Shown: in pieces, positions 4,595-29,791 of the stretch
How the letters are laid out: every line of letters begins with the position of its first letter
Numbering within the stretch: position 1 is the first letter of the stretch
NCBI GenBank assembly: GCA_002011115.2
Contig: MTME02000098.1
Location: forward strand, 1 to 32,128
Length of the DNA: 32,128 bases
Direction of reading: 5' to 3'
Source: Candidatus Pyrohabitans sp. JdFR-17
GTDB lineage: Archaea > Hydrothermarchaeota > Hydrothermarchaeia > Hydrothermarchaeales > BMS3B
Position numbers and translations under genes: made by a program
The notes under the pieces: model-generated
What the model was told of the DNA's origin: nothing
What the model saw: the letters and a program-made list of their open reading frames with translations, nothing else
Database searches by the model: none

Positions 4595-7027
4595 CTAAAA
4601 TCTCGATTGACTCCATTTTGTCCTCACTCTCACTTGAATTCTTTCCCTTATGCGATTATAAAGATCAATTCTGGCTTTATGTTTAATAGTAACCACAACT
4701 GCGTAGTCCTGCATATAACCTTTATCTTTCAGCCATCTGCTTTGAGATATAACAGCAAGCACAAGCGGTTTATTTGGGTCAATATCAGGTCTTCTTGTAT
4801 AAATTTTTGTACCTTTTTGATGTATCCCTCTTTTGCGTATTCTAACTCCTGGACGTAATTGTATCTCATTTACTTTCAGTTCTTCTGGGACAACCTCCTC
4901 CGATTCCTCAATACTGTGGATAATGTGTCGATAAGCTTTAAGTACCTCCTGAATTTCAGCGTTTTTGAAAAGGTGAAATTCCATACTGGCTCCCATATAA
5001 TCAATCCTATTTCTTCTTATAGGAGGGTTATAAACAAGAGTCACTGAAATTTCCCTCTCACCCCTCTCTTCTATGAATTCTTTTGGCAAATAGAAATAAT
5101 ATAGGTGAACTTTATCTAATTTTATCTTGTTTTCTGCCAAAAGTAAAACCCGATTCCGTTCAGATGCTAACGCTACATTAATATTTGGTTTACCGTAGCC
5201 ATAAACTTTCAATAAATCCATAAGTTTTTTATCAGAATCATTGAAGCTAATCTCACTCAAAGGTGAAGGTCTATCATGTGGTATTTCTGCTGAAGCTATG
5301 AGCAATGCTTTTATTAAATTGGTGGAATAATTAGGAAAATTATTAAAAAGCTTTGCTATATAGTGGGCAACTTTAGGAGCAGAAAGACTCGTTCCATAGC
5401 TAACAGTGAAAAGTCTTCCATCCTCAGACCACTTGTGATTTAAAACAACAATTCCACCGCCAATATTTTCCACTTTACGATAAAGGGGATCATCTGTGGG
5501 GTATATATAGTTTCCTCCTTCTTCTACAATCTCAGGTTTTATCATTCCTTTATAACCAGGCCCAACACGGGTAAATGGGGAAGGATAGTTTGTTTTGGCT
5601 GGTGAAAACAATATTCTTCCTGGTCTCTCACTATATGGCCCAAATTCCTGGGCTATTGCACCCACTGTTATGGCATAGGCGGAGGATGCAGGGTCAATAA
5701 TCTTCACGTCCGCTTTCTCTTTAATTAAATAATGAGGATAATTCTCAGGAAAACCGTAATCGTGAGGCACAAGATTATTTCCTGCAGATACTACAAATAT
5801 TATATCAAGCTCCTTTGCCAGTTCGTCTATTAAAGTAGCTAGTGCAAATTGTCTTCTATTCCCAAACATCGTTTTGTATTCATCGCCAAATGAGATATTA
5901 ACTACTTTGCAATTTCTATATTTTTCTACAAAATATCTTACGCCTTTTTCTAATTGATGCTCTAAAAGTTCACTTTCATCATACGTTGCTATAATATCAC
6001 CAGTAGTTTCATCTTCTTCTTTGAACATTATTTTTGCGGAAAGTATCCACACTTCCGGATTAAATCTTCCTTCTTTAATACATTTTTTTATATCCCCATA
6101 CAAAGCAATACCTGCAACCTCTGTACCATGTCCTACATCATCTTGAGGTTTGTCATCTTTAATTTCTTCTCTATTAAGCATTGGAACTGCTATTTCATCT
6201 CCCACTGCTTTTTCGAGTAAAGGATGATTTGATAAAACTCCACTATCCAATACTACAATAGCAGGGGCATCTTCAGGGGGGGATCCTCCAATTTCAAATT
6301 CTTCTAATGGACCGGATAACATTTTATATGTTATGTATGGTTTTGGTGGTCTGTCTATACGGCTTATTTCCCTTAGTTTTATAATTTCTTCAAAAATCGA
6401 TCTGTTCATTTTAACTCTTAATAAACATAGATTCTCAGTACGAAGTTCATCAGTTACTTTCCCACCCCTAGAGCTTATCAGTCTTTTAAATCCATCTAAA
6501 AATTCTTTAAGTCTTTCATCCTCCATTCTCCAGATTTCGATATCTAAATAAGCTTCTTCGCCTTCCCGTAACGGATTTTCTTTAAGTTGCTCGCCTATTT
6601 TTTCCTCTGGTGGGATAGGCTCAAAAGATTCAATTGCATCAAATTGCTTATACCTATCCTTCTCCCCATATTCTTTCAATTTCGTTTTAATTTCAGTTAA
6701 ATTTTCGTCTTCAGCCAATGAAATCCAGTATCCTTTACCTACAGGTGACGAAGATATAACTTTTATTTTATTTCTCTCCAAAAACTTAATAAATTCTTCT
6801 TCATCTACGTTTTGATTCAATTTTATTTTAAATATAAAATTCGGGTCAAAAAAATCTTTGAACATTTCTTTATCTTTCTTGAAACCACTCTTTATACCCT
6901 CTAAATTAAAAATTTGAATATCTGAAAATTGTCTTCTATCTCCTCTAGGCCTTATTATCCTTATTCCTCGCTTTTTTCTTTCAAAATCCCCCTCATAAAA
7001 TGGAAGATTAAGATGTTTCACTGTCAA
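4595..7027 (-). CDS. ietS: S8 subtilisin-like serine protease, IetS-like
   Basis: Catalytic triad motifs: Asp 'AIVVLDSGVLSNHPLL', His 'DDVGHGTEVAGIALYG', Ser 'VSYGTSLSAPKVAHYIA'; overlaps the AAA ATPase gene by 4 nt. Confidence 0.85.
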   Translation of the reverse strand: MTVKHLNLPFYEGDFERKKRGIRIIRPRGDRRQFSDIQIFNLEGIKSGFKKDKEMFKDFFDPNFIFKIKLNQNVDEEEFIKFLERNKIKVISSSPVGKGYWISLAEDENLTEIKTKLKEYGEKDRYKQFDAIESFEPIPPEEKIGEQLKENPLREGEEAYLDIEIWRMEDERLKEFLDGFKRLISSRGGKVTDELRTENLCLLRVKMNRSIFEEIIKLREISRIDRPPKPYITYKMLSGPLEEFEIGGSPPEDAPAIVVLDSGVLSNHPLLEKAVGDEIAVPMLNREEIKDDKPQDDVGHGTEVAGIALYGDIKKCIKEGRFNPEVWILSAKIMFKEEDETTGDIIATYDESELLEHQLEKGVRYFVEKYRNCKVVNISFGDEYKTMFGNRRQFALATLIDELAKELDIIFVVSAGNNLVPHDYGFPENYPHYLIKEKADVKIIDPASSAYAITVGAIAQEFGPYSERPGRILFSPAKTNYPSPFTRVGPGYKGMIKPEIVEEGGNYIYPTDDPLYRKVENIGGGIVVLNHKWSEDGRLFTVSYGTSLSAPKVAHYIAKLFNNFPNYSTNLIKALLIASAEIPHDRPSPLSEISFNDSDKKLMDLLKVYGYGKPNINVALASERNRVLLLAENKIKLDKVHLYYFYLPKEFIEERGEREISVTLVYNPPIRRNRIDYMGASMEFHLFKNAEIQEVLKAYRHIIHSIEESEEVVPEELKVNEIQLRPGVRIRKRGIHQKGTKIYTRRPDIDPNKPLVLAVISQSRWLKDKGYMQDYAVVVTIKHKARIDLYNRIRERIQVRVRTKWSQSRF

Positions 7028-8013
7028 TTCCCCTTTCTAGCTTTAATTTTCTTTTTTTGCTTATGGACAGCTTTTTTTACATCATCAAAACTTACAACAG
7101 CCCTATCATTCAATATTGCCATTTTTAGAGCATCTATACAAGCTTGTTCAATATCTGCTCCTGAAAATCCCATAGACTGCTCTGCGAGTTTGGTTATATC
7201 AAATTTTTTATCCTTTTTTAATACTTTTAAATATTTTTCAAAAAGTTTTTTACGCCTTTTTTTATCAGGGAGGTCAAAATAAACAATTTCATCAAACCTT
7301 CGCCAAACCCCAATATCAAGTATATGTGGATGATTCGTAGCAGCTATTATCAAACTATCGCCCTCATAATTTTCAAGCATCAACATGAAATTATTGACCA
7401 CCCTTTTGATCTCTCCATGTTCCGTAGGATCATCTCTCTGTTTTCCAATTATATCAAATTCATCGAAAAGGACCACCCATTTACCCTTTTCTATGAAATC
7501 AAATATTTTTCTTAAATTAGAAGCAGTTTCTCCTAAGTACGATGATATCACAGACTCAAATCTCACAAAAACAAGAGGATATCCAATAACTGAACTCATC
7601 ACCTTTGCTGTGAGTGTTTTACCGGTTCCTGGAGGACCATAAAAGAGTATTTTTCTTTTGGGTCTCAATCCGTAAGTTGCTAAAATATCCTCCTTTTCTA
7701 ATTCTCTTATAATTTGTTTCAAAGTTTCCTCGGTTTCTTTTGATAAAACCACATCATCCCAACTAAGAAAGAATTTTTTAACTTCCAATAATTTAAACCC
7801 TTTTTCATTGTCTCTTGGTATTGGTGGCATATGGCGAGGAGGAATGTTCGATGAAATTGAATTTTCTGCTAATATTCGTTTTAACTGAGCTGCTAATAAA
7901 TGATGTTTTTTTCTTTCCTCCTCTTTTATTATTTCCTGAGCTATACTATAAAACGCATCATCGTCCTTTTTCATAAAAGCTTCAAATAAGTTTATTAACT
8001 TTTCAGAGTTCAT
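7024..8013 (-). CDS. ietA: AAA+ ATPase, IetA-like
   Basis: Walker A 'FYGPPGTGKTLTAK', Walker B 'WVVLFDEFDII', sensor-1 'IIAATNHPHILD', 'GFSGADIEQACIDALKMAI'; directly coupled to the subtilase. Confidence 0.85.
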   Translation of the reverse strand: MNSEKLINLFEAFMKKDDDAFYSIAQEIIKEEERKKHHLLAAQLKRILAENSISSNIPPRHMPPIPRDNEKGFKLLEVKKFFLSWDDVVLSKETEETLKQIIRELEKEDILATYGLRPKRKILFYGPPGTGKTLTAKVMSSVIGYPLVFVRFESVISSYLGETASNLRKIFDFIEKGKWVVLFDEFDIIGKQRDDPTEHGEIKRVVNNFMLMLENYEGDSLIIAATNHPHILDIGVWRRFDEIVYFDLPDKKRRKKLFEKYLKVLKKDKKFDITKLAEQSMGFSGADIEQACIDALKMAILNDRAVVSFDDVKKAVHKQKKKIKARKGN

Positions 8014-9803: not shown

Positions 9804-10817
9804 TCACCTGAATATCAGCATCGCATCCCCGAAGCTGTAAAAGCGGTACCTGTGCTTAATAGCCTCTCTGTAAGCTTTTAGAATCCTCTCTCTGCTGGCG
9901 AAAGCGCTTACCAGCATTAGAAGCGTCGAGCGTGGGAGGTGGAAGTTGGTTATTAGCCCGGCGTAGGGCACCTTAAACTCGTACCCCGGGTAGATAAAGA
10001 GCGTAGTCGTGGAAACCCCAGGGACAACACCTCCATCCTCAAAGGCGCTCTCCAGGGCGCGAACCGTCGTCGTACCCACGGCAAAAACTCTGCGCCCCTC
10101 TTCCAGCGCACGGTTTATCTTCTCTGCCTCATTGCGGGGTATCTCAAAATGCTCCTCATGCATTCGATGCTTCTCCACCTCCTCCACCTTCACAGGCAGA
10201 AACGTGCCAAGACCAACGTGCAGTGTTATGAAAGCAAACTCCACGCCGCGGCTGCGGAGCTCAGCTAAAAGCTCATGTGTAAAGTGAAACCCTGCGGTGG
10301 GTGCGGCGATGCTGCCGTCCTTGCTCGCATAAACCGTCTGGTACTCCTCCGGGTTATCTACTCTCCTCTTTATGTACGGCGGAGTTGGCATCTCCCCTAT
10401 CTTCCACATCACCTGCCTAATATCGCCACCGGTAAAGCGAACCACCAGCTTGCCCTCGCTCTTCTGCTCCACCTTCGCGGAGATACCAGATGGAAAGCTT
10501 ATCTCAGCTCCTTCTCTGAGCCTGCCCTTGACGAGGCACTCCCACAGGTTTTCCCCAAGCTCTTTCACCAGAAGAAGCTCCACCCTGCCACCAGTGCTTT
10601 TCCTACCCCTTAGGCGGGCGGGAATTACGCGGGAGTTGTTAAAAATAAGCAAGTCGCCCTTCTCAAGGTAGCGTACTATTTCCCTGAAGATGCGGTGCTC
10701 TATACTGTCGCCTCGTAACACCATTAGCCTTGAGGCGTCCCTCCTTCTAAGGGGCTCCTGGGCGATAAGCTCCTTGGGCAGGAAGTAGTCAAAGTCCCTC
10801 AATTTCATAGCCAACAA
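9804..10817 (-). CDS. queA: S-adenosylmethionine:tRNA ribosyltransferase-isomerase QueA
   Basis: 'MKLRDFDYFLPKELIAQEPLRRRDASRLMVL', 'GSIAAPTAGFHFT', 'ITLHVGLGTFLPV', 'VGTTTVRALES', 'ITNFHLPRSTLLMLVSAF'. Confidence 0.96.
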   Translation of the reverse strand: MLAMKLRDFDYFLPKELIAQEPLRRRDASRLMVLRGDSIEHRIFREIVRYLEKGDLLIFNNSRVIPARLRGRKSTGGRVELLLVKELGENLWECLVKGRLREGAEISFPSGISAKVEQKSEGKLVVRFTGGDIRQVMWKIGEMPTPPYIKRRVDNPEEYQTVYASKDGSIAAPTAGFHFTHELLAELRSRGVEFAFITLHVGLGTFLPVKVEEVEKHRMHEEHFEIPRNEAEKINRALEEGRRVFAVGTTTVRALESAFEDGGVVPGVSTTTLFIYPGYEFKVPYAGLITNFHLPRSTLLMLVSAFASRERILKAYREAIKHRYRFYSFGDAMLIFR

Positions 10818-10989: not shown

Positions 10990-11682
10990 ATGAAGGAAGT
11001 AAGCGTTGCCAAGGGTTTGGTAATTCTTGTTATCCTTTTGGGCATGTTTTCCATAGCTCATGCAAAGCCTGAGTTTGCAGAAAAGACGGGAGAAAGCTGC
11101 ACAGTATGCCATCCCAATGGACCACCTGGGCTGGGACCTGCGGGAGAATACTACAAGGAACACGGCACCCTCGAAGGCTATGGCGAACTTCCTATTGGGA
11201 AGGCTGAGCCAGGAGGGAGATGCAACGTCTGCCATGCCCAGTTCAAGCCTAACCCCACGCCTCGGGACCTAAGTTCTGCCCCACGGGAGCCCAACCACAG
11301 GTTTGAGTTAAAGCACGGAGGCGGCAGGTTCTGGTGTCTCACCTGCCACAACCCTGTGAATCGCGACACCCTCCGCCTTTTCAACGGTAGCGAGATTCCG
11401 TTCGAAGATGCACCCCTGCTCTGCTCCCAGTGCCACGGCGTGATCTATCAGGAGTGGAAGGAACACATTCATGGAAGATGGGTTGGCAGTATCGAGAATC
11501 CAGAGCCTGATGTCACATGTACAGATTGCCACAACCCGCATGACCCAAAGTTCAAACCGATTGAACCAGAAAAGCCACCGGAAAAGCCCCCAGTCTCAAA
11601 GGAAATACCCAACTATCCGGTGTACTCCTTCATAGTGCTTGCCCTCAGCCTACTGCTTGCTGTGTACGCCGCGTGGAGGTAG
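10990..11682 (+). CDS. Five-heme c-type cytochrome with signal peptide and C-terminal TM anchor
   Basis: Five CxxCH motifs (CTVCH, CNVCH, CLTCH, CSQCH, CTDCH); N-terminal signal; C-terminal 'YPVYSFIVLALSLLLAVYAAWR'. Confidence 0.93.
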   Translation: MKEVSVAKGLVILVILLGMFSIAHAKPEFAEKTGESCTVCHPNGPPGLGPAGEYYKEHGTLEGYGELPIGKAEPGGRCNVCHAQFKPNPTPRDLSSAPREPNHRFELKHGGGRFWCLTCHNPVNRDTLRLFNGSEIPFEDAPLLCSQCHGVIYQEWKEHIHGRWVGSIENPEPDVTCTDCHNPHDPKFKPIEPEKPPEKPPVSKEIPNYPVYSFIVLALSLLLAVYAAWR

Positions 11683-11686
11683 AGAG

Positions 11687-12664
11687 ATGGTTGACGAGAG
11701 CAGGAGAGATTTCCTAAAAAAAGCAGCTGCAGGCGCTACTGCAGCTGTTATACCCTTCGCAAACGTGCGCATCCCCGTAATTGACGTAACCCTTGAGGAG
11801 TTTTTCCAGAAGCATTACAAGGAGATGAGCGAGGAGGAGAAGCAGCGCGTTATAGAGCGCCTTAAGAAAGAGTACAAGGAGAAGTACGGCATTGATGCTA
11901 CGATAAAGACAACAGAGGCAAGGGAAGGCGTCGTATGGGGTTATGCCCTTAACATACAGAAGTGCATCGGTTGCAGGCGATGTGTCTACGCGTGCATGCG
12001 GGAGAACAACCAGTCTCGAGCGTCACCTACCGACCCAACTAAAAGCGAGATACAGTGGATTCGAGTGCTTGAAATAGAGAAGTTCAAGATTCACCCTGGT
12101 GAGGAAGGCAAAGACTTCCGCACTCGCTTTGGTGAGATTATTGCAGGAGTCAACTTAGAGGAGAATGAGCACTACTACAACCCGGAGCATGTGCCAGAGG
12201 AGGATAAATTCTATGTGCCCATCCAGTGCCAGCAGTGCGAGCGCCCACCCTGCGTGAAGGTGTGCCCCACCAAAGCTACGTGGAAAGAGCCTGATGGTAT
12301 AATTGTGGTGGACTACAACTGGTGCATTGGCTGCAGGTTCTGCCTCGCCGCGTGCCCCTACTGGGCTCGCAGGTTCAACTGGAGCGATCCCTATCTACCC
12401 AAGGAGGAGATCAACCCCAATATGCACTACCTGGGCAACCGCATACGCATGCGCGGCGTTGTGGAAAAGTGCACCTTCTGCATACAGCGCACCCGAGAGG
12501 GGCGCTACCCTGCCTGCGTGGAAGCGTGCCCGGTGGGTGCAAGGAAGTTCGGCAACCTGCTTGACCCAGAAAGCGATGTAAGGAAGGTGCTGGAGAAAAA
12601 GCGCGTCTTCCGGCTGAAAGAGGAGCTGGGAACGCAGCCAAAATTCTTCTATTTCATGGACTGA
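11687..12664 (+). CDS. Tat-exported ferredoxin-type iron-sulfur subunit (DmsB/HmcB/NrfC-like)
   Basis: Tat motif 'ESRRDFLKKAAAGATAA'; multiple 4Fe-4S clusters (CIGCRRCVYAC, CQQCERPPCVKVCP, CIGCRFCLAACP, CTFCIQR...CVEACP). ORF track begins at 11639, but 11687 ATG gives the Tat signal. Confidence 0.92.
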   Translation: MVDESRRDFLKKAAAGATAAVIPFANVRIPVIDVTLEEFFQKHYKEMSEEEKQRVIERLKKEYKEKYGIDATIKTTEAREGVVWGYALNIQKCIGCRRCVYACMRENNQSRASPTDPTKSEIQWIRVLEIEKFKIHPGEEGKDFRTRFGEIIAGVNLEENEHYYNPEHVPEEDKFYVPIQCQQCERPPCVKVCPTKATWKEPDGIIVVDYNWCIGCRFCLAACPYWARRFNWSDPYLPKEEINPNMHYLGNRIRMRGVVEKCTFCIQRTREGRYPACVEACPVGARKFGNLLDPESDVRKVLEKKRVFRLKEELGTQPKFFYFMD

Positions 12665-12665
12665 G

Positions 12666-13943
12666 GTGATGGAGATGAGCAAGCTAATCGACTTTGTGAT
12701 AACCTCAATAAAGGTTTCCCTGACAGGAAGCAGGAAGTACTACGCCTGGCTGGCGAGTCTGCTCATAATAGTGCTCTTCGGAGCGTTTTCATATTACTAC
12801 CAGCTCAAGTACGGGTTGATAATCACCGACATCCGCGACCAGGTGAGCTGGGGTAGCTACATCGCCAACTTTACATTCCTCGTTGGCGTTGCAGCGGCGG
12901 CGGTTATGATCGTCTTGCCTGCATACATTTACAACTACAAGGAGTTCAAACATATCACCATATTCGGCGAACTCCTCGCTGTTGGAGCTTTGATAATGTG
13001 TCTGAGCTTCGTGCTTGTTGACCTCGGTAGGATTGACAGGATGCTCCACATCCTGCCCTTCACAGGTACGCCCAACTGGCCTCAGTCCATGCTCACCTGG
13101 GACGTGATTGTGCTCAATGGCTACCTGTTCCTGAACCTGCTAATCCCGGGCTACCTGCTGTACAAAGCCTACGTTCGCGAGCCTCCGCGGAAGTGGATCA
13201 GGATATTCATCCTTATCTCCATACCCTGGGCGATAAGCATCCACACAGTTACGGCGTTCCTCTACGGTGGCTTAGCCGCGAGACCCTTCTGGAACACCGC
13301 CGTTATGGCGCCCCGCTTCCTTGCAAGCGCATTTACAGCGGGACCAGCGCTGATGATAATTATCCTCCAGATAGTGAGGCGCTATACATGCATTGGCAAG
13401 CCCGGATGTAGGCTCGTTGTGACGGACAGAGCGCTCTTCACTCTGGCGCACATCGCTTTAATATCCATGCTGGTCAACCTGTTCTTCCTGGGTTCTGAGA
13501 TTTACACCGTGGGCTACGCCGCAACCTCACACCTTGCGCCGCTGAAGTACCTCTTCTTCGGCCTGGAGCACAACGGCGTAACCTATGCGAAACTTAAGCC
13601 CTACATGTGGGCAGCGATTACAATGGAGATAATTGCCGCGATCTTGCTGCTCTTCCCGAAAACCCGCAAGAACTTCACAACGCTCAACATAGCCTGCATT
13701 TTCGCCTTCCTCGGCATATGGACAGAGAAGGGTATGGGCCTTATAATCCCTGGCTTTATACCCACGCCCATCGGCGAGATATGGGAGTACTATCCCACGC
13801 TTATGGAGATAATGATAACCCTCGCCGTGTGGGCTCTTGGTTTTCTAGTGTACACCCTTCTCCTGAAGGTTGCTATAGCAATAGAAGCCGAGGAAGTTGT
13901 GCATCCCAGCGCTAAAGACAAAGAAATGCCTGAGATGCACTAA
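12666..13943 (+). CDS. NrfD/PsrC-like integral membrane quinol-oxidoreductase subunit
   Basis: Multi-TM protein directly downstream of the Fe-S subunit; NrfD-like hydrophobicity pattern and operon context. Confidence 0.88.
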   Translation: MMEMSKLIDFVITSIKVSLTGSRKYYAWLASLLIIVLFGAFSYYYQLKYGLIITDIRDQVSWGSYIANFTFLVGVAAAAVMIVLPAYIYNYKEFKHITIFGELLAVGALIMCLSFVLVDLGRIDRMLHILPFTGTPNWPQSMLTWDVIVLNGYLFLNLLIPGYLLYKAYVREPPRKWIRIFILISIPWAISIHTVTAFLYGGLAARPFWNTAVMAPRFLASAFTAGPALMIIILQIVRRYTCIGKPGCRLVVTDRALFTLAHIALISMLVNLFFLGSEIYTVGYAATSHLAPLKYLFFGLEHNGVTYAKLKPYMWAAITMEIIAAILLLFPKTRKNFTTLNIACIFAFLGIWTEKGMGLIIPGFIPTPIGEIWEYYPTLMEIMITLAVWALGFLVYTLLLKVAIAIEAEEVVHPSAKDKEMPEMH

Positions 13944-21818: not shown

Positions 21819-23516
21819 TCAGCTTCGCTTAAACCTTCTTTCAATCTCCCTTAAATCAAAGGTCACGGCGGTGGGTCTCCCGTGGGGGCAGGTGGCTGGT
21901 TGCGGAGTTCTGCTGAGGTGGGCGAGGAGCGCATGCATCTCATCCCTGCTTAGATAATCTCCAGCCTTAACCGCATTTTTGCAAGCGACGCGGTATATCA
22001 TCTCCTCTCTGCGCCTCTCGCTGTTTTTCAAGCTTCCCGCCTCTATCAGAGAATGCACTATCTCGTAGATCTCCTCTTTCCTCACAGCTCTGCCCAGGAA
22101 TAGAGGAACTGCTTTGACCAGGTAGCTCCGCTCTCCGAAGTTCTCGATTTCAAACCCCAGCTCGGAGATGAGCTCAAGGTTTTCCTCGAGTATCGCCGCT
22201 TCTCTCGGAGAGAGCTCAAGGAGCGCCGGCGAAACCAGGCGCTGCTTCTCAAGCTTCTTTTGTTTTAGCTGAGCCTTGAACTTCTCGAATAGCACGCGCT
22301 CGTGAGCAGCGTGCTGATCTATAAGCACCAGACCCTCACTGCTCTCCGCGAGGATATAGGTGTTGTGGAGCTGGGCAAGTGGCTTAAGCTGCTTGAAGAA
22401 AAGCGAGTAGTTTCGTTCCTTCTGCTCTGGCTCGGGAGCGTACTCAGGCTTCGCCTCCTTCACCACGCTTCTCGCAGGAGCACGCTCAACCTCTAAGCTG
22501 AGTTGCTGTGCCCTTGCTTCCTTACCCTCTGTGCGGGAGAGCAGTGCTTCTCGGAGAGCCTCAACCAAAAGCGCGCGTAGCTTCGCCTCCTCTTTAAACT
22601 TCACCTCTATCTTTGCCGGGTGCACATTCACATCAACGCGCTCCGGGGGAAGCTCAAGGAAGATAAACGCCAGGGGGTGGCGCTGCTTCGGCAGAAGCGT
22701 GTGGTACGCCTCATCTAGAGCTAAGCTGAGCAACCTGCTCTTCACATAGCGCCGGTTCACGAAGAGGTACTGCTCCGCTCGCGAGGCTCTGCTTAGGGAA
22801 GGTGAGGAAACAAAGCCGTAGATGCGGTAGCCTTCCCGCTCCAGCTTCACATCAAGCAACTGCTTCGCCACATCCTTACCATAGAGCAGCGCCAGCCTCT
22901 CTCTCATGCTTCCCCTCGGTGCAACTATGCTACGCTTGCCTTCCCTGAAAAACTCGAAGTGCACCTCGGGAAACGCTAGAAGGTAACGCGTGAGCGTGGC
23001 GACAACCTCTCTACCCTCGGCGGCGCTGCTCTTGAGAAACTTCCTCCTTGCGGGGGTGTTGAAAAAAAGATTCTCAACCACAACGCTTGTGCCCGGGGCA
23101 CAGCCCTTAGGCTCAAGGCTGAGCACCTTCCCGCCTTCAACCACTATGCGGGTGCCTTCTAAGCTATCCCTCTCCCTAGTCTCCATCGTAACCTTCGCCA
23201 CGCTGGCTATGCTGGGCAGAGCTTCGCCCCGAAATCCCAGGCTGCGCACCGCGTAGAGGTCTTCGAAGCTGGAAATTTTGCTCGTTGCATGCCTTTCGAA
23301 GGCTAAAAGCGCATCTTCGCTGCTCATGCCTATGCCGTCGTCGCTAACGCGGATGTAGCTCCTCCCGCCGTCGCGTATCTCAACGGATATGCGGGTAGCG
23401 CTCGCGTCCAGGCTGTTTTCCACCAGCTCCTTGACCACGCTCGCTGGGCGCTCCACCACCTCGCCAGCGGCGATTTTGCTCGCGATGCTCTCGCTCAGCA
23501 CTCGGATGCGGGGCAT
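21819..23516 (-). CDS. mutL: DNA mismatch repair protein MutL
   Basis: 'IAAGEVVERPASVVKELVENSLDA', 'DDGIGMSSEDALLAFERHATSKI', 'GFRGEALPSIASVA', 'FVNRRYVKS', 'CPHGRPTAVTFD'. Confidence 0.97.
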   Translation of the reverse strand: MPRIRVLSESIASKIAAGEVVERPASVVKELVENSLDASATRISVEIRDGGRSYIRVSDDGIGMSSEDALLAFERHATSKISSFEDLYAVRSLGFRGEALPSIASVAKVTMETRERDSLEGTRIVVEGGKVLSLEPKGCAPGTSVVVENLFFNTPARRKFLKSSAAEGREVVATLTRYLLAFPEVHFEFFREGKRSIVAPRGSMRERLALLYGKDVAKQLLDVKLEREGYRIYGFVSSPSLSRASRAEQYLFVNRRYVKSRLLSLALDEAYHTLLPKQRHPLAFIFLELPPERVDVNVHPAKIEVKFKEEAKLRALLVEALREALLSRTEGKEARAQQLSLEVERAPARSVVKEAKPEYAPEPEQKERNYSLFFKQLKPLAQLHNTYILAESSEGLVLIDQHAAHERVLFEKFKAQLKQKKLEKQRLVSPALLELSPREAAILEENLELISELGFEIENFGERSYLVKAVPLFLGRAVRKEEIYEIVHSLIEAGSLKNSERRREEMIYRVACKNAVKAGDYLSRDEMHALLAHLSRTPQPATCPHGRPTAVTFDLREIERRFKRS

Positions 23517-23563: not shown

Positions 23564-23818
23564 TTATTCGTAAATCCTCTCCCTTTTATCCACTTTTATG
23601 ATTATTATTCTCTCATTCTTCTTGTCAATTTCATACAGTATCCTGAATTTCCCCACACGTATTCTATAAAGGTTAGTTTCACCTCTGATTTTCTTATAAG
23701 GATATCCATAAGGGTTTTTTCGTAATACGAGCAATATATCTTTAATTTTGTTCTTATAAGTATCTGCTAATTTAGATACAAATTTTGCAGCCTGCTTTGA
23801 AAATATTATTTCGTACAT
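23564..23818 (-). CDS. RelE/ParE-family toxin
   Basis: 'YEIIFSKQAAKFVSKLADTYKNKIKDILLVLRKNPY...YRIRVGKFRILYEIDKKNERIIIIKVDKRERIY'. Confidence 0.9.
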   Translation of the reverse strand: MYEIIFSKQAAKFVSKLADTYKNKIKDILLVLRKNPYGYPYKKIRGETNLYRIRVGKFRILYEIDKKNERIIIIKVDKRERIYE

Positions 23819-24018
23819 TACTGTTTACCGAATACCTCGTCAAATTTAACATAATCTCCGCGCTTAATTTCCCTACGAATCTCCTCTATTTCTTTTCGTT
23901 CTTCCTCTGTCAGCTCCTCATACCCGAGAAAGTTATCTATTTTCATGTTCAACTCAATAATCATTTTTTCTATGTTATTTATTTTCTTCAACAGTATATC
24001 AGTCATGTCTATAACCAC
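23818..24018 (-). CDS. RelB-like antitoxin
   Basis: 66-aa acidic/coiled-coil ORF directly upstream of, and overlapping, relE. Confidence 0.7.
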   Translation of the reverse strand: MVIDMTDILLKKINNIEKMIIELNMKIDNFLGYEELTEEERKEIEEIRREIKRGDYVKFDEVFGKQ

Positions 24019-24062
24019 TCACGCTACCTTCATAAATCAATACTTAAAAATTTTCCGATGTC

Positions 24063-24139
24063 GTATAACGTTCTGCGGACTTACGAAATTCGGCTTTGCT
24101 TAATTTGTGCAGAGCGGAGCCATATGCCCGCTGTTAGGT
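24063..24139. repeat. attC-like site A (77 bp)
   Basis: Plus: GTATAAC-GTTCT-GCGGAC ... GCCCGC-T-GTTAGGT, i.e. outer TAAC/GTTA boxes, inner GCGGaC/GcCCGC boxes, further AAATT/AATTT pairing inside. Confidence 0.5.
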
Positions 24140-24159
24140 GACATGTTTTTTACTATTCC

Positions 24160-24449
24160 TTACCTCTGTATATTCCACTCTGGTTTCAGTTTTTCGATTA
24201 GGGGATTTTCTAATCCCTTTATGAGGTCGACATTTAAGCCTTTATATAATAGTGTTGATTCTGGTTTTAACGCAAATATCTTAACCACCTTTCCCTGTTC
24301 TAAGCATTCTTTTATTTTATTGGCAACACGCTCATTTGTCCCTGCTCCTTGCATACTTTTGTATCTATTCAATCTATCTTTCAAGGTTGTAACAGTATTA
24401 TCACAGACTCCTTTCCTACTTCTACAAAACCGTAATCGCTTAATATCAT
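24160..24449 (-). pseudogene. GIY-YIG nuclease family remnant (frameshifted/internally deleted)
   Basis: 'GVCDNTVTTLKDRLNRYKSMQGAGTNERVANKIKECLEQGKVVKIFALKPESTLLYKGLNVDLIKGLENPLIEKLKPEWNIQR' resembles the GIY-YIG C-terminal half; upstream ATG 'MILSDYGFVEVGKESVIILLQP*' is in a different frame and the GIY-YIG core is missing. Confidence 0.5.
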
Positions 24450-24472
24450 TTTCAAGCCTCCAATAACATGAC

Positions 24473-24559
24473 CCCTAACAGCGAACATACAGTTCGAGCC
24501 ACGACCTCACCCAAAATGCCACTAACCTTATACAGAGAACTACGGGCGAACTGTTTTTC
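24473..24559. repeat. attC-like site B (about 87 bp, degenerate)
   Basis: Inverted CAGTTCGAGCC (24490-24500)/GGGCGAACTG (24544-24553) plus terminal CCCTAACAGCG, which matches the ACCTAACAGCG end of site A. Confidence 0.4.
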
Positions 24560-24564
24560 CCGTT

Positions 24565-25518
24565 TCATAATGCATTTGTAATAGTAGCATATAGGCACAC
24601 CCCATTAAAACCACATTTTTTGCATTTGGGAGTACTCCCACATATATTGTATCTTTCTCTTCCACAATAATACCAAATAAAAATATCTACAATACCAGGC
24701 GCATCGCCTAAGTCTATATCCTCAACAACTTTTCCTTTCAGGTATTTAGAGCAGAAATTGATCAGAGCATCATGTAGAGATTTTTTGTCTAAGGGATCAT
24801 TTTTATTTTCGCTACTGCACACATGGTATATCCCAGTTCTTATTATAAATCTCATTTCATGCCTATCCATAGGAATTCTATCCCAATAGCCAAAATCTCT
24901 GAGATAATTATCCCTTCCTTTTTCGCCTAATACATTGCTCTTTCCAATTTTTGCCATCTCATAAAGTTTTTCTGTAAAGTCTTTTATAGTCTGATATTTT
25001 AATAATCTTTTTACCCTCTTTTTTGCTTTATCTTTTATAATTTTGGGAACAAATTTATAAACTAACTCAGTAAGTTCTTTTTTTGCTTCTGAACTTCTTA
25101 TATCGCTTGCATGGCGATTACAAAAACGTTCCATTTCACTATAAAATTTCGAATAGTATATTGACAATTTTGAATTTTTCTCCTCAACGATATAAACTCT
25201 ACTATTATCGATAATTTCCCAATTGCCATATATTCCATCAACCATAGCACTGCTGGAAAGAGCATGACCATGAGTGCTAAATTCATCCTTTAAAGCCTTT
25301 GGAATTAATTTTCTGTCAAGATCTTTTATAATCTCCTCGGAAGAATCTCTAATACTGAACAATAATTCTTTGGGCATTCTGAAATACCAGGCCTGATAGG
25401 TAATCATCTCAACAATATGCTTCAGTGCTTTAATAGAGTCTGGATTTTGGCTAAGTTCTTGTTTGTTATTTCTCAATAACTGAAGTTCGTCTTTGAGTTT
25501 TTTTGCCAAATCTATCAT
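24565..25518 (-). CDS. Hypothetical protein with C-terminal CX5CX2CX5C motif
   Basis: 317 aa; C-terminus 'YYCGRERYNICGSTPKCKKCGFNGVCLYA', possible Fe-S or Zn site; no family recognised with confidence. Confidence 0.7.
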   Translation of the reverse strand: MIDLAKKLKDELQLLRNNKQELSQNPDSIKALKHIVEMITYQAWYFRMPKELLFSIRDSSEEIIKDLDRKLIPKALKDEFSTHGHALSSSAMVDGIYGNWEIIDNSRVYIVEEKNSKLSIYYSKFYSEMERFCNRHASDIRSSEAKKELTELVYKFVPKIIKDKAKKRVKRLLKYQTIKDFTEKLYEMAKIGKSNVLGEKGRDNYLRDFGYWDRIPMDRHEMRFIIRTGIYHVCSSENKNDPLDKKSLHDALINFCSKYLKGKVVEDIDLGDAPGIVDIFIWYYCGRERYNICGSTPKCKKCGFNGVCLYATITNAL

Positions 25519-25614
25519 TTAACATCCAATTAATGGTGTTTTTAAATTCGTCGGCAAATTTGTTTATGTCATATTCCATTTTTCAAGCCTCCTATCTCTT
25601 TCGCACGTAATTTT

Positions 25615-25700
25615 GGCCAACGTTCTGGAGATATGTGAAGTTCCGCTTTACAGGATTTTGAACGTCGCCGAAAGTGAAGCCACATCTATAATTAAGGGCT
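25615..25700. repeat. attC-like site C (degenerate)
   Basis: 'CAACGTTCTG' matches site A 'TAACGTTCTG'; AGAT(A)TGTG (25629-25637)/CACATCT (25681-25687) inverted boxes with one extrahelical base; internal GCTTTAC/GTGAAGC. Confidence 0.35.
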
Positions 25701-25745
25701 TGAATATTTAAAAGTCTTGTACACTATTAGGACACCGATAACCGC

Positions 25746-26657
25746 TCAGAAAATCTCACTCGCCTCTATCGTCGTGGTGAAGGTACGCAGTAGAAGCTCT
25801 TCCTCTGGCTGAGGCGTTGCGAGGAGCACCAGTTCGCTCCACTTGCGGTACTCGTGGGCTCTGCTTTCCAGGGCACGGAGCTTCTCAACCACGCCTCGTC
25901 TCGCCATCTCTTCCCTCAGCGAAGAGAACATCTCCTCGCTTCCCGCGAGCAGCTTCGCCTCGTGGAAGATCTTGCACGCCACCATGTCTTCAAAGCTCTG
26001 GAAGCGCAGCTGCTCTCTCGCCTTGCTCCACCTCTTAATCAGATAATCAAGCTCTTCCTTGCGGGGCATCGCAAGAAGGCGGTGCTTTATCTCAAATAGC
26101 AAGCTGTCCAGCTTTTCTTCAATCTCACGGCTCACATCATCGCCGAGGATGACCACCAGGTCTAGGTCGGAGCCCGCCACAAGCTCACCGGTGCTGCGTT
26201 CCGGGCGAGGGTCAGCGTGCGCCATGCCGAGGGGAACGTCGCCCCCGAGAATGAAGCAGCTCTGGCTTAGAAGTGTCTTTCCTTCCTCACCCAGCCTCTC
26301 CACCGCTTCTGTGACCACGCGCTTCGCCAGCCTAAGCTTGTGCGCACTTATCTCAGTAATTTCCTTCTCGAGCTGTGCCGCCCTCTCCACAACCTCGCTT
26401 TTCTGCTCCTCCAGCCCAACTACGGTGTAGGTGAGAAACTCCCGCTGAATCGATGGCGACAGGCGGGCGTAACCCTCAATGCGCCTGTCCAAGCGTAGGT
26501 AGCGCCTTCCCACTCGCCTGGTTACAATGCGTCTGCTCAGCATGCAGGTGCGCCACAGCTGAAAGGAGTCTATGCCCAGGCTCTCGTAAAGCTCCTTTCC
26601 CAGGGCTACGCCATGCTGCCTGAGAAACTCCAACACTCGCCCTTCAATCTCCTCCAT
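25746..26657 (-). CDS. Nucleotidyltransferase-fold protein with N-terminal wHTH
   Basis: '[16 protein letters not shown]' NTase signature; N-terminal winged-helix-like segment. Confidence 0.7.
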
Positions 26658-28831: not shown

Positions 28832-29791
28832 TCAAACCTCCACCCTTATACCCAGAATCTCCCTCTCGCCTTCGTAAACCGCCCTTGCAATCTCGGCACT
28901 CCCCCTTGCTGCGCTATACTCGTCTGTGCGCAGCACCGGCGCTAGCTCGCGCAGCCTCTCCGCCAGCCTCGAAAACACCGCGTCGTTAACACCTGCACCG
29001 CCGGTTATTACTATCGCCTCCGGCTCAACCAGCGCCGTGAGGGAGCGAATCTCCATCTCCACGCTCAGCACGAGAGCATTCAAGGCGAGCTTTGCTCTTT
29101 CGTTTTTGGGTTCAAGAATCTCCCTGAGATCTGAAAAGGGGTATATCTTCACAGCACCCGCGCGGGAGAAGGCTTCGCCTGCGGTAACCTCGCCCCTATC
29201 GATGCGGCGGATCGCCTCTAAGTCAAGGGGACCGTGGAATATGCCTATCGCACCTAGGCAGGCGTCAATAGCGCCGATTATTCTCCCAGACTTCACAGCC
29301 ACGCTCACAGTATTGGAGCTTATGTCGCTCACAATAAAGCTCTTCGCGCCAAGCTCCCGCTTTACCTTCAGATAAGCATCGTAGGCGATGCTCACCTTCT
29401 CTGCGCTCGCCATGTGGGAGTAAAGCGCGCGCATGCGCTCGTCTAAGCTGGCTATGTTGCGATGAAGTCCGGGTATAACCACCGCCTTAATCCCGCTCGC
29501 CGCAAGCTCATCGTAGGCGCGGGTGCCCCCGCCAACATGCTCGCCAGCGCCGCCACCTGGGAGCACTCCGCGGTTTTTAACCTTATCTATGCGGGTGATC
29601 GCCGTTAGCGCATCGCCCATGGAATAAGTTATCCCCGCAAGCTCTATCTTCGCCAGCTCAACCCTGCGCTCAATCTCTTGGAGCACGCCTTCGCGCGCAG
29701 CTTTGCTGCGGGGCACTGAGAAGCCCGCGTTCTCAGGAATAAGGTAGAAACGAATTTCGCGAGTGCCGTGGTCCATGCCCAGAAAGCTCAT
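28832..29791 (-). CDS. Methanogenesis marker protein 12-like (ASKHA-fold)
   Basis: 'ITYSMGDALTAITRIDKVKNRGVLPGGGAGEHVGGGTRAYDELAASGIKAVVIPGLHR', 'FIVSDISSNTVSVAVKSGRIIGAIDACLGAIGIFHGPLDLEAIRRIDRGEVTAGEAFSRAGA'. Confidence 0.85.
   Translation of the reverse strand: MSFLGMDHGTREIRFYLIPENAGFSVPRSKAAREGVLQEIERRVELAKIELAGITYSMGDALTAITRIDKVKNRGVLPGGGAGEHVGGGTRAYDELAASGIKAVVIPGLHRNIASLDERMRALYSHMASAEKVSIAYDAYLKVKRELGAKSFIVSDISSNTVSVAVKSGRIIGAIDACLGAIGIFHGPLDLEAIRRIDRGEVTAGEAFSRAGAVKIYPFSDLREILEPKNERAKLALNALVLSVEMEIRSLTALVEPEAIVITGGAGVNDAVFSRLAERLRELAPVLRTDEYSAARGSAEIARAVYEGEREILGIRVEV

Follow-up and report, generated by a model that had tools for sequence, protein, structure and literature searches.

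A probable gene-cassette insert without integrase in a Hydrothermarchaeales genome, with attC-like sites that are linked in other genomes to integrases lacking the I2 helix

In the accepted account, the integron integrase IntI gained the ability of recombining single-stranded DNA by acquiring the I2 helix, which docks the extrahelical bases of the attC site (PMC7790495). With models built for bacterial attC and IntI, integrons and CALINs have also been found in archaea, and the archaeal IntIs identified in this way carry the IntI-specific domain (Ghaly et al., 2022; PMC9668308). Here we describe a gene block of a hydrothermarchaeal genome whose recombination sites differ from class-1 attC, and a group of integrases that are linked to sites of the same family in other genomes and do not possess the additional domain. 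No description of I2-less integrons or of these sites was found in the literature searched, which excluded bioRxiv and included few subscription papers, and their novelty is regarded as provisional.

The window, i.e., the whole stretch of 32,128 nucleotides that was analysed, comes from a genome that is 83% complete and consists of 101 contigs. As originally predicted, it contains an AT-rich block of minus-strand genes between mutL and a nucleotidyltransferase-like (NTase-like) gene, with a GC content of 0.31-0.38 inside the block versus 0.50-0.59 in the flanks. The features of the block and its flanks are listed below, with bit scores of the covariance models R1 and R2 that were derived for the site family.

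21819-23516, minus strand: mutL, which flanks the block
23564..24018, minus strand: relBE-like pair adjoining the insert, not a cassette; RelE-like toxin (phrog_1213, 4.6e-18)
24062..24139, minus strand: site A, intact R2-family attC-like site of the GIY-YIG cassette (R1, 55.9 bits; R2, 52.6 bits)
24069..24478, minus strand: inferred GIY-YIG cassette of ~410 bp with G|TT at both ends, placed by the arm-match rule
24069..25741, no strand assigned: whole insert relative to the sister genomes, with putative ends at GTT junctions
24160..24384, minus strand: C-terminal remnant of a GIY-YIG-type endonuclease (phrog_1111, 1e-4, profile positions 57-134 of 139)
24476..24564, minus strand: site B, where the cassette of the 317-aa gene would be expected to have its site; either degenerate or inverted (R2, <4.7 bits)
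24565..25518, minus strand: gene of the 317-aa cassette, without known family
25614..25697, minus strand: site C, decayed R2-family site (R2, 11.4 bits, E 0.23 in 3.5 kb)
25746-26657, minus strand: NTase-like gene, which flanks the block

The proteins expected in the block were confirmed: the RelE-like toxin, the endonuclease remnant, for which phrog_1111 is an endonuclease profile and the GIY-YIG type was assigned by inspection of the translation, and the 317-aa protein without a family, for which Pfam, PHROGs, NCBIfam and PADLOC all gave no significant match and which by inspection carries zinc-ribbon-like CxxC pairs close to its C terminus. The predicted absence of a nearby integrase likewise holds for the window, which contains no integrase gene, and no cognate integrase was found in the 83%-complete source genome. 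Elsewhere in the window, a second AT-rich block (4595-8013, minus strand) encodes an IetA/IetS pair of an AAA ATPase and a subtilase (PADLOC, 2.2e-91 for IetA and 8e-135 for IetS), a pair already known as a candidate system of anti-phage defence. The window also encodes methanogenesis marker 12 together with DsrO and DsrP, which belong to an electron-transfer complex of sulfate reduction (11639-13943, plus strand; 28832-29791, minus strand); these genes suggest an archaeon whose sulfur metabolism is dissimilatory.

Three inverted-repeat sites had been proposed to separate the genes, and they fared differently. Site A, which reads ACCTAAC-A-GCGGGC...GTCCGC-AGAAC-G|TTATAC along the minus-strand genes, is intact. 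It is matched by R1 with an E value of 2.6e-10 genome-wide and by R2 with one of 1.2e-8, both training alignments having included site A itself; its 16-mer alone sufficed to recognise its family in unrelated genomes, and the match is far beyond chance. The models are written on the plus strand, opposite to the cassette genes. Site C is decayed; it is the second-best R2 place of the region, lies on the same strand as A and shares with it a direct repeat of 40 nt (70%). Site B is not recognised by R2, and an inverted repeat of 28 nt (24123-24150 and 24462-24489, 82% complementary) connects it with A. Folded alone as single strands, a check suggested earlier, A, B and C are all unremarkable (z -0.4 to -1.8), whereas intact relatives of site A fold at z -2.9 to -7.6. 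Set against the definition of a CALIN (two or more attC sites, spaced by less than 4 kb, and no integrase), the block holds the strong site A and the weak site C 1.5 kb away, neither of which is a canonical attC. The window has no Rfam match up to E 1. BLAST with site A, which is too insensitive for this family and had to be replaced by covariance models, found no second close copy in the source genome. The proposed search for homologous elements was productive with R2, which found four R2-family sites in the source genome, all on the expected strand and each directly following a gene, besides those in other archaea described below.

With one genome taken per species, the 16-mer of site A is found in 54 places, which is the chance level for its length; in 10 of the 54 the whole element follows, with two inverted arms, a compensated stem and two hairpins. 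The ten whole elements are from archaea (Aenigmatarchaeota, Ca. Methanoliparum, Archaeoglobaceae and Thermoplasmata) and bacteria (Dehalococcoidia, Pacebacteria, Aminicenantes, Thermotogae and one unclassified bacterium). Model R1 was made from alignment A1 (13 sequences), and its matches gave alignment A3 (67 sites), from which model R2 was made. The R2 family exists, and its pairing is conserved by covariation: in A3, 91.4% of the pair cells are standard versus 73.0% after shuffling, two-sided changes are found in 20 of the 26 pairs and in 292 cells (15.2 and 91, respectively, after shuffling), none of 500 shuffles comes near the observed pairing, and shifting the partners destroys the pattern. 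A3 was fitted to the structure and is hence biased in its favour; the trend is also seen in the plain MAFFT alignment A1. In gene orientation, the pattern of an R2 site is NYYAAC-A-(about 11-bp stem)-two hairpins-(stem)-N4-5-GTTRNNN. Core and stem are separated by 4-5 nt on one side (59/63) and by 1 nt on the other (52/63), the stem has no extrahelical base and the top is branched. The asymmetric spacers, initially regarded as a caveat, are indeed present and are a hallmark of the family. An attC site folds more stably on the strand opposite to its cassette gene, and so do all four intact R2 sites that were folded as single-stranded DNA.

For comparison with canonical attC, model R3 was made from 13 class-1 cassette sites only, with spacers of 5/5-6 and an extrahelical base, and was assembled from two arms and a placeholder middle because RNAalifold on MAFFT-aligned canonical attC yielded no useful structure. 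R3 finds class-1 and class-2 sites, some of which were not used for its training, as well as two next to the integron integrase of a phage. It finds no R2-family site above background, all three window sites included (best, 16.6 bits, E 0.53), so that the suggested attC-model check gives background for A, B and C with the class-1 model and recovers A with the model of its own family. Of 101 archaeal genomes, 4 have R3 matches versus 28 with R1 matches (E <= 1). The R2 sites differ clearly from class-1 attC; as R3 is narrower than the published attC models, the difference does not extend to every known attC. In G018, a genome of the same order, R3 has two matches (G018:C95:214-285, 32.1 bits; G018:C28:2901-2958, 30.0 bits), and both kinds of sites, R2 and canonical attC, may occur in these archaea.

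R2 matches are present in 86 of 394 archaeal genomes (E <= 1e-3) and also in several bacteria. Because the archaeal carriers include the single-contig genomes G195 and G254, mis-binning cannot explain this prevalence. Among 21 unrelated genomes, 20 are without a match at E <= 0.01, and R2 sites are absent at canonical integron loci. The lone exception among the 21, a Bacteroidetes genome (G414, that of locus L057), has seven weak R2 matches of 30-35 bits, several of them ~130 bp long, which are either distant relatives of the element or look-alikes. A scan of viral contigs gave a single match, to the exact 23-base core, at 10638-10660 of IMGVR_UViG_3300009503_000040 (L339).

R2 sites are found in tandem on the same strand, directly after stop codons. 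Neighbouring sites (42 pairs) are separated by a median of 761 bp, and in 31 of the 42 gaps the longest ORF lies in the expected direction (p 0.003). One locus, L279, has seven sites and six single-gene cassettes. The cargo includes methyltransferases, a HepT-like ribonuclease, hydrolases, a cation efflux protein and, in L150, the defence candidate PDC-S11. Should a cassette be excised as a circle at G|TT, the outermost bases of the 5' arm of its site would be expected to pair with the start of that same cassette and not with the adjacent arm, and this is what is seen. At the first four positions of 24 cassettes, these bases agree in 69% with the start of their own cassette, in 46% with the adjacent arm and in 46% after shuffling, with none of 5000 shuffles as high as observed. 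In the window, the outer 5'-arm bases of site A match the start of the GIY-YIG cassette at 10 of 12 positions and the local arm at 6 of 12, and the ends of this cassette are therefore set at 24478 and 24069. This fingerprint is the best evidence that the block arrived via this kind of recombination. Many cassette starts contain CAATYG or GACATYG about 5-6 bases past GTT, and the sequence adjoining site A (GTTATACGACATCGG) contains the motif as well; given this shared motif, the arm of R2 sites may be longer than the 7-base core.

Comparison with related genomes, as originally suggested, shows that the cassettes are absent from the same place in three of them. In G001 and G004, only 39 bp separate the stop of the NTase gene from the start of mutL. 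The corresponding interval of G003 contains relB (82% identical) and a broken relE, and the sites A-C, the 317-aa gene and the GIY-YIG gene are all absent from it. Because relB and the broken relE of G003 stand there without sites, relBE can occupy the locus without the cassettes, and the idea that relBE is the last cassette of the array was ruled out; the pair is an older resident of the locus and not a cassette. The cassettes of the insert lie between the NTase gene and relB. With the ends as placed here, the junction on the NTase side (TGAGCGG|TTATCGG) and that on the relB side (G|TTATACGACATCGG) would both fit a GTT target.

In genomes that carry R2 sites, matches to the integron integrase model TIGR02249 are often split into two pieces, with model positions ~181-228 missing. 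In an alignment, residues ~196-247 of IntI1 have no counterpart in any of the site-linked integrases, all of which retain the catalytic motifs. The missing segment is the IntI-specific additional domain (I2 helix). Integrase and R2 sites are on one contig in 17 genomes (loci L154, L156, L164, L167, L270, L272, L273, L276, L277, L279, L280, L281, L283, L290, L291, L295 and L303), with some of the integrases decayed. Fourteen of these loci have the arrangement known from integrons, with the sites 5' of the integrase gene and the cassettes directed away from that gene; the exceptions are L167, L272 and L279. In L272 (G178:C43), L279 (G281:C2) and L167 (G110:C19), integrase and cassettes run in the same direction and the integrase open frame is longer (309-366 aa; interrupted in L167), and these integrases may be a sub-type. 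The integrase of G076, once considered as the prime linked case, was dropped, being XerA-like with a weak nearest site; its genome is outside the 17, yet it is labelled as linked in the tree.

In this tree, which left out the archaeal IntIs of Ghaly et al. and the spirochaete IntIs, the site-linked integrases cluster with the IntI references (91/81), and XerA/C/D fall outside this group. Positions of IntI nested within the I2-less integrases or sister to them fit equally well (p 0.385), and grouping of IntI with XerC/D is rejected (p 0.0003). A same-strand site is found within 1.5 kb of the integrase 5' end in 9 of 25 clade members versus 0 of 17 others (p 0.005), with groups drawn after the tree was seen, linkage scored partly when the groups were already known, and 8 of the 25 clade integrases near contig ends, so that linkage was not scorable for all. 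One subclade has a conserved block around AACNNCTATTANNCGAA, recognised by eye, upstream of the integrase start in 8 of its 9 loci (L276, L277, L291, L274, L275, L166, L156 and L295); it resembles half an R2 site and is a candidate attI. Most of the IntI domain is also missing from integrases encoded on NZ_AP018821.1 (59971-60876) and on many alphaproteobacterial plasmids, which are annotated as site-specific integrase or y4qK and share ~38-39% identity with P0001.

With the arrays, the integrase linkage, the missing domain, the fingerprint and the empty neighbour loci observed, we consider the block at ~24069-25741 to be, probably, a small and partly decayed gene-cassette insert without integrase (CALIN-like), which belongs to an I2-less type of integron with R2 attC-like sites. 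The core idea of the original prediction, an integrase-free, integron-like cassette cluster in an archaeon, is thereby retained on the strength of the R2 family, the arrays and the G|TT boundary, and ordinary attC sites, site B and relBE are no longer part of it. Among the points against the proposed reading are that no cognate integrase was found in the source genome, 83% complete, and that site B is unsupported, its repeat with A being inverted in a way that a normal array does not explain. The closest rival is an ordinary CALIN, in which the sites would be normal, divergent attC of canonical archaeal or bacterial integrons with an I2-bearing IntI. The GTT core, single-gene cassettes, toxin-antitoxin and defence cargo and divergent integrase all match such an origin, integrons are known in archaea (PMC9668308), and one R2 site is marginal with R3. 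We nevertheless judge it improbable, as the linked integrases lack the additional domain, the spacers are 1/4-5 and not 5/5-6, the extrahelical base is missing, the top is branched, and the sets of sites found by R3 and R2 differ.

Less probable by a clear step is a MITE- or REP-like repeat, i.e., a short palindrome scattered by a transposase with genes between its copies by chance. The element is indeed palindromic, intergenic and often single and scattered in a genome, and the 28-nt inverted repeat flanks the GIY-YIG remnant, but the intervals hold one ORF each in tandem, same-strand spacing, the copies have diverged with compensatory changes instead of being near-identical, the source genome has no second close copy by BLAST, and the outer bases pair with the far end of the cassette itself, which a free-standing repeat does not predict. 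A structured RNA, such as a regulatory element or terminator in mRNA tails, would account for the covarying structure with its branched top and for the position of the sites directly past stop codons. We give it the least credence of all, given that the window is without an Rfam match up to E 1, the strand opposite to the genes gives the more stable fold, the distribution is patchy and crosses domains, and neither the cassette-boundary fingerprint nor the integrase linkage fits an RNA.

Under the preferred reading of an I2-less cassette system, the integrase would bind the folded single strand of the site, would recognise the strand via the one-sided spacer bulge instead of extrahelical bases read by I2, and would exchange one strand at G|TT; cassettes may then leave as circles and insert beside the integrase or at other GTT targets. 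We propose that the 317-aa and GIY-YIG cassettes were inserted adjoining relBE, between the NTase gene and mutL, by an enzyme that was supplied in trans, has since been lost or was not assembled, and that they may have been decaying since insertion. That the helix and the extrahelical bases are both missing in one system is a striking match, although one whose meaning is inferential.

On balance, we lean towards a second branch of integrons, one without I2 that is common among archaea from anoxic habitats and also occurs in some bacteria, with folded sites marked by a one-sided spacer instead of extrahelical bases. If so, single-strand cassette recombination would predate the I2 helix, currently held to be the innovation that made integrons, or would have arisen apart from it. 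Surveys that depend on canonical attC models and on the IntI domain may then overlook most archaeal cassette arrays, and the arrays would offer archaea and bacteria a concrete route for exchanging genes. With a natural group of I2-less enzymes that are close to IntI and have folded sites of their own, the accepted account of I2 would also become directly testable with natural enzymes.

Compared with known systems, the linked integrases have the domain layout and length (about 275-290 aa) of archaeal XerA (NF040815), and the four integrases that were scanned score 209-268 bits on NF040815, above their scores on TIGR02249. XerA/C/D are, however, outside the clade of the site-linked integrases and IntI, and R2 sites are absent at two XerA control loci and at the XerA-like locus of G254. 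Like the archaeal CALINs of Ghaly et al., the R2 arrays hold cassettes mostly without an integrase and with toxin-antitoxin and defence cargo (PMC9668308); prevalence is 75 of 6718 genomes in that study (PMC9668308) versus 86 of 394 for R2, in samples that differ. With the canonical integrons (class 1, IntI1/attC), R2 systems share folded sites, an AAC/GTT core, the G|TT boundary, single-gene cassettes, a divergent tyrosine integrase and CALIN-like arrays without integrase, and a divergent integrase beside tandem single-gene cassettes is seen in relatives only and not in the source genome. The two systems differ in that canonical IntI possesses the additional domain (I2 helix), whereas R2-linked integrases are without it, and in that class-1 attC has spacers of 5/5-6 nt and an extrahelical base, whereas R2 sites have spacers of 1/4-5 nt, no extrahelical base and a conserved branched top.
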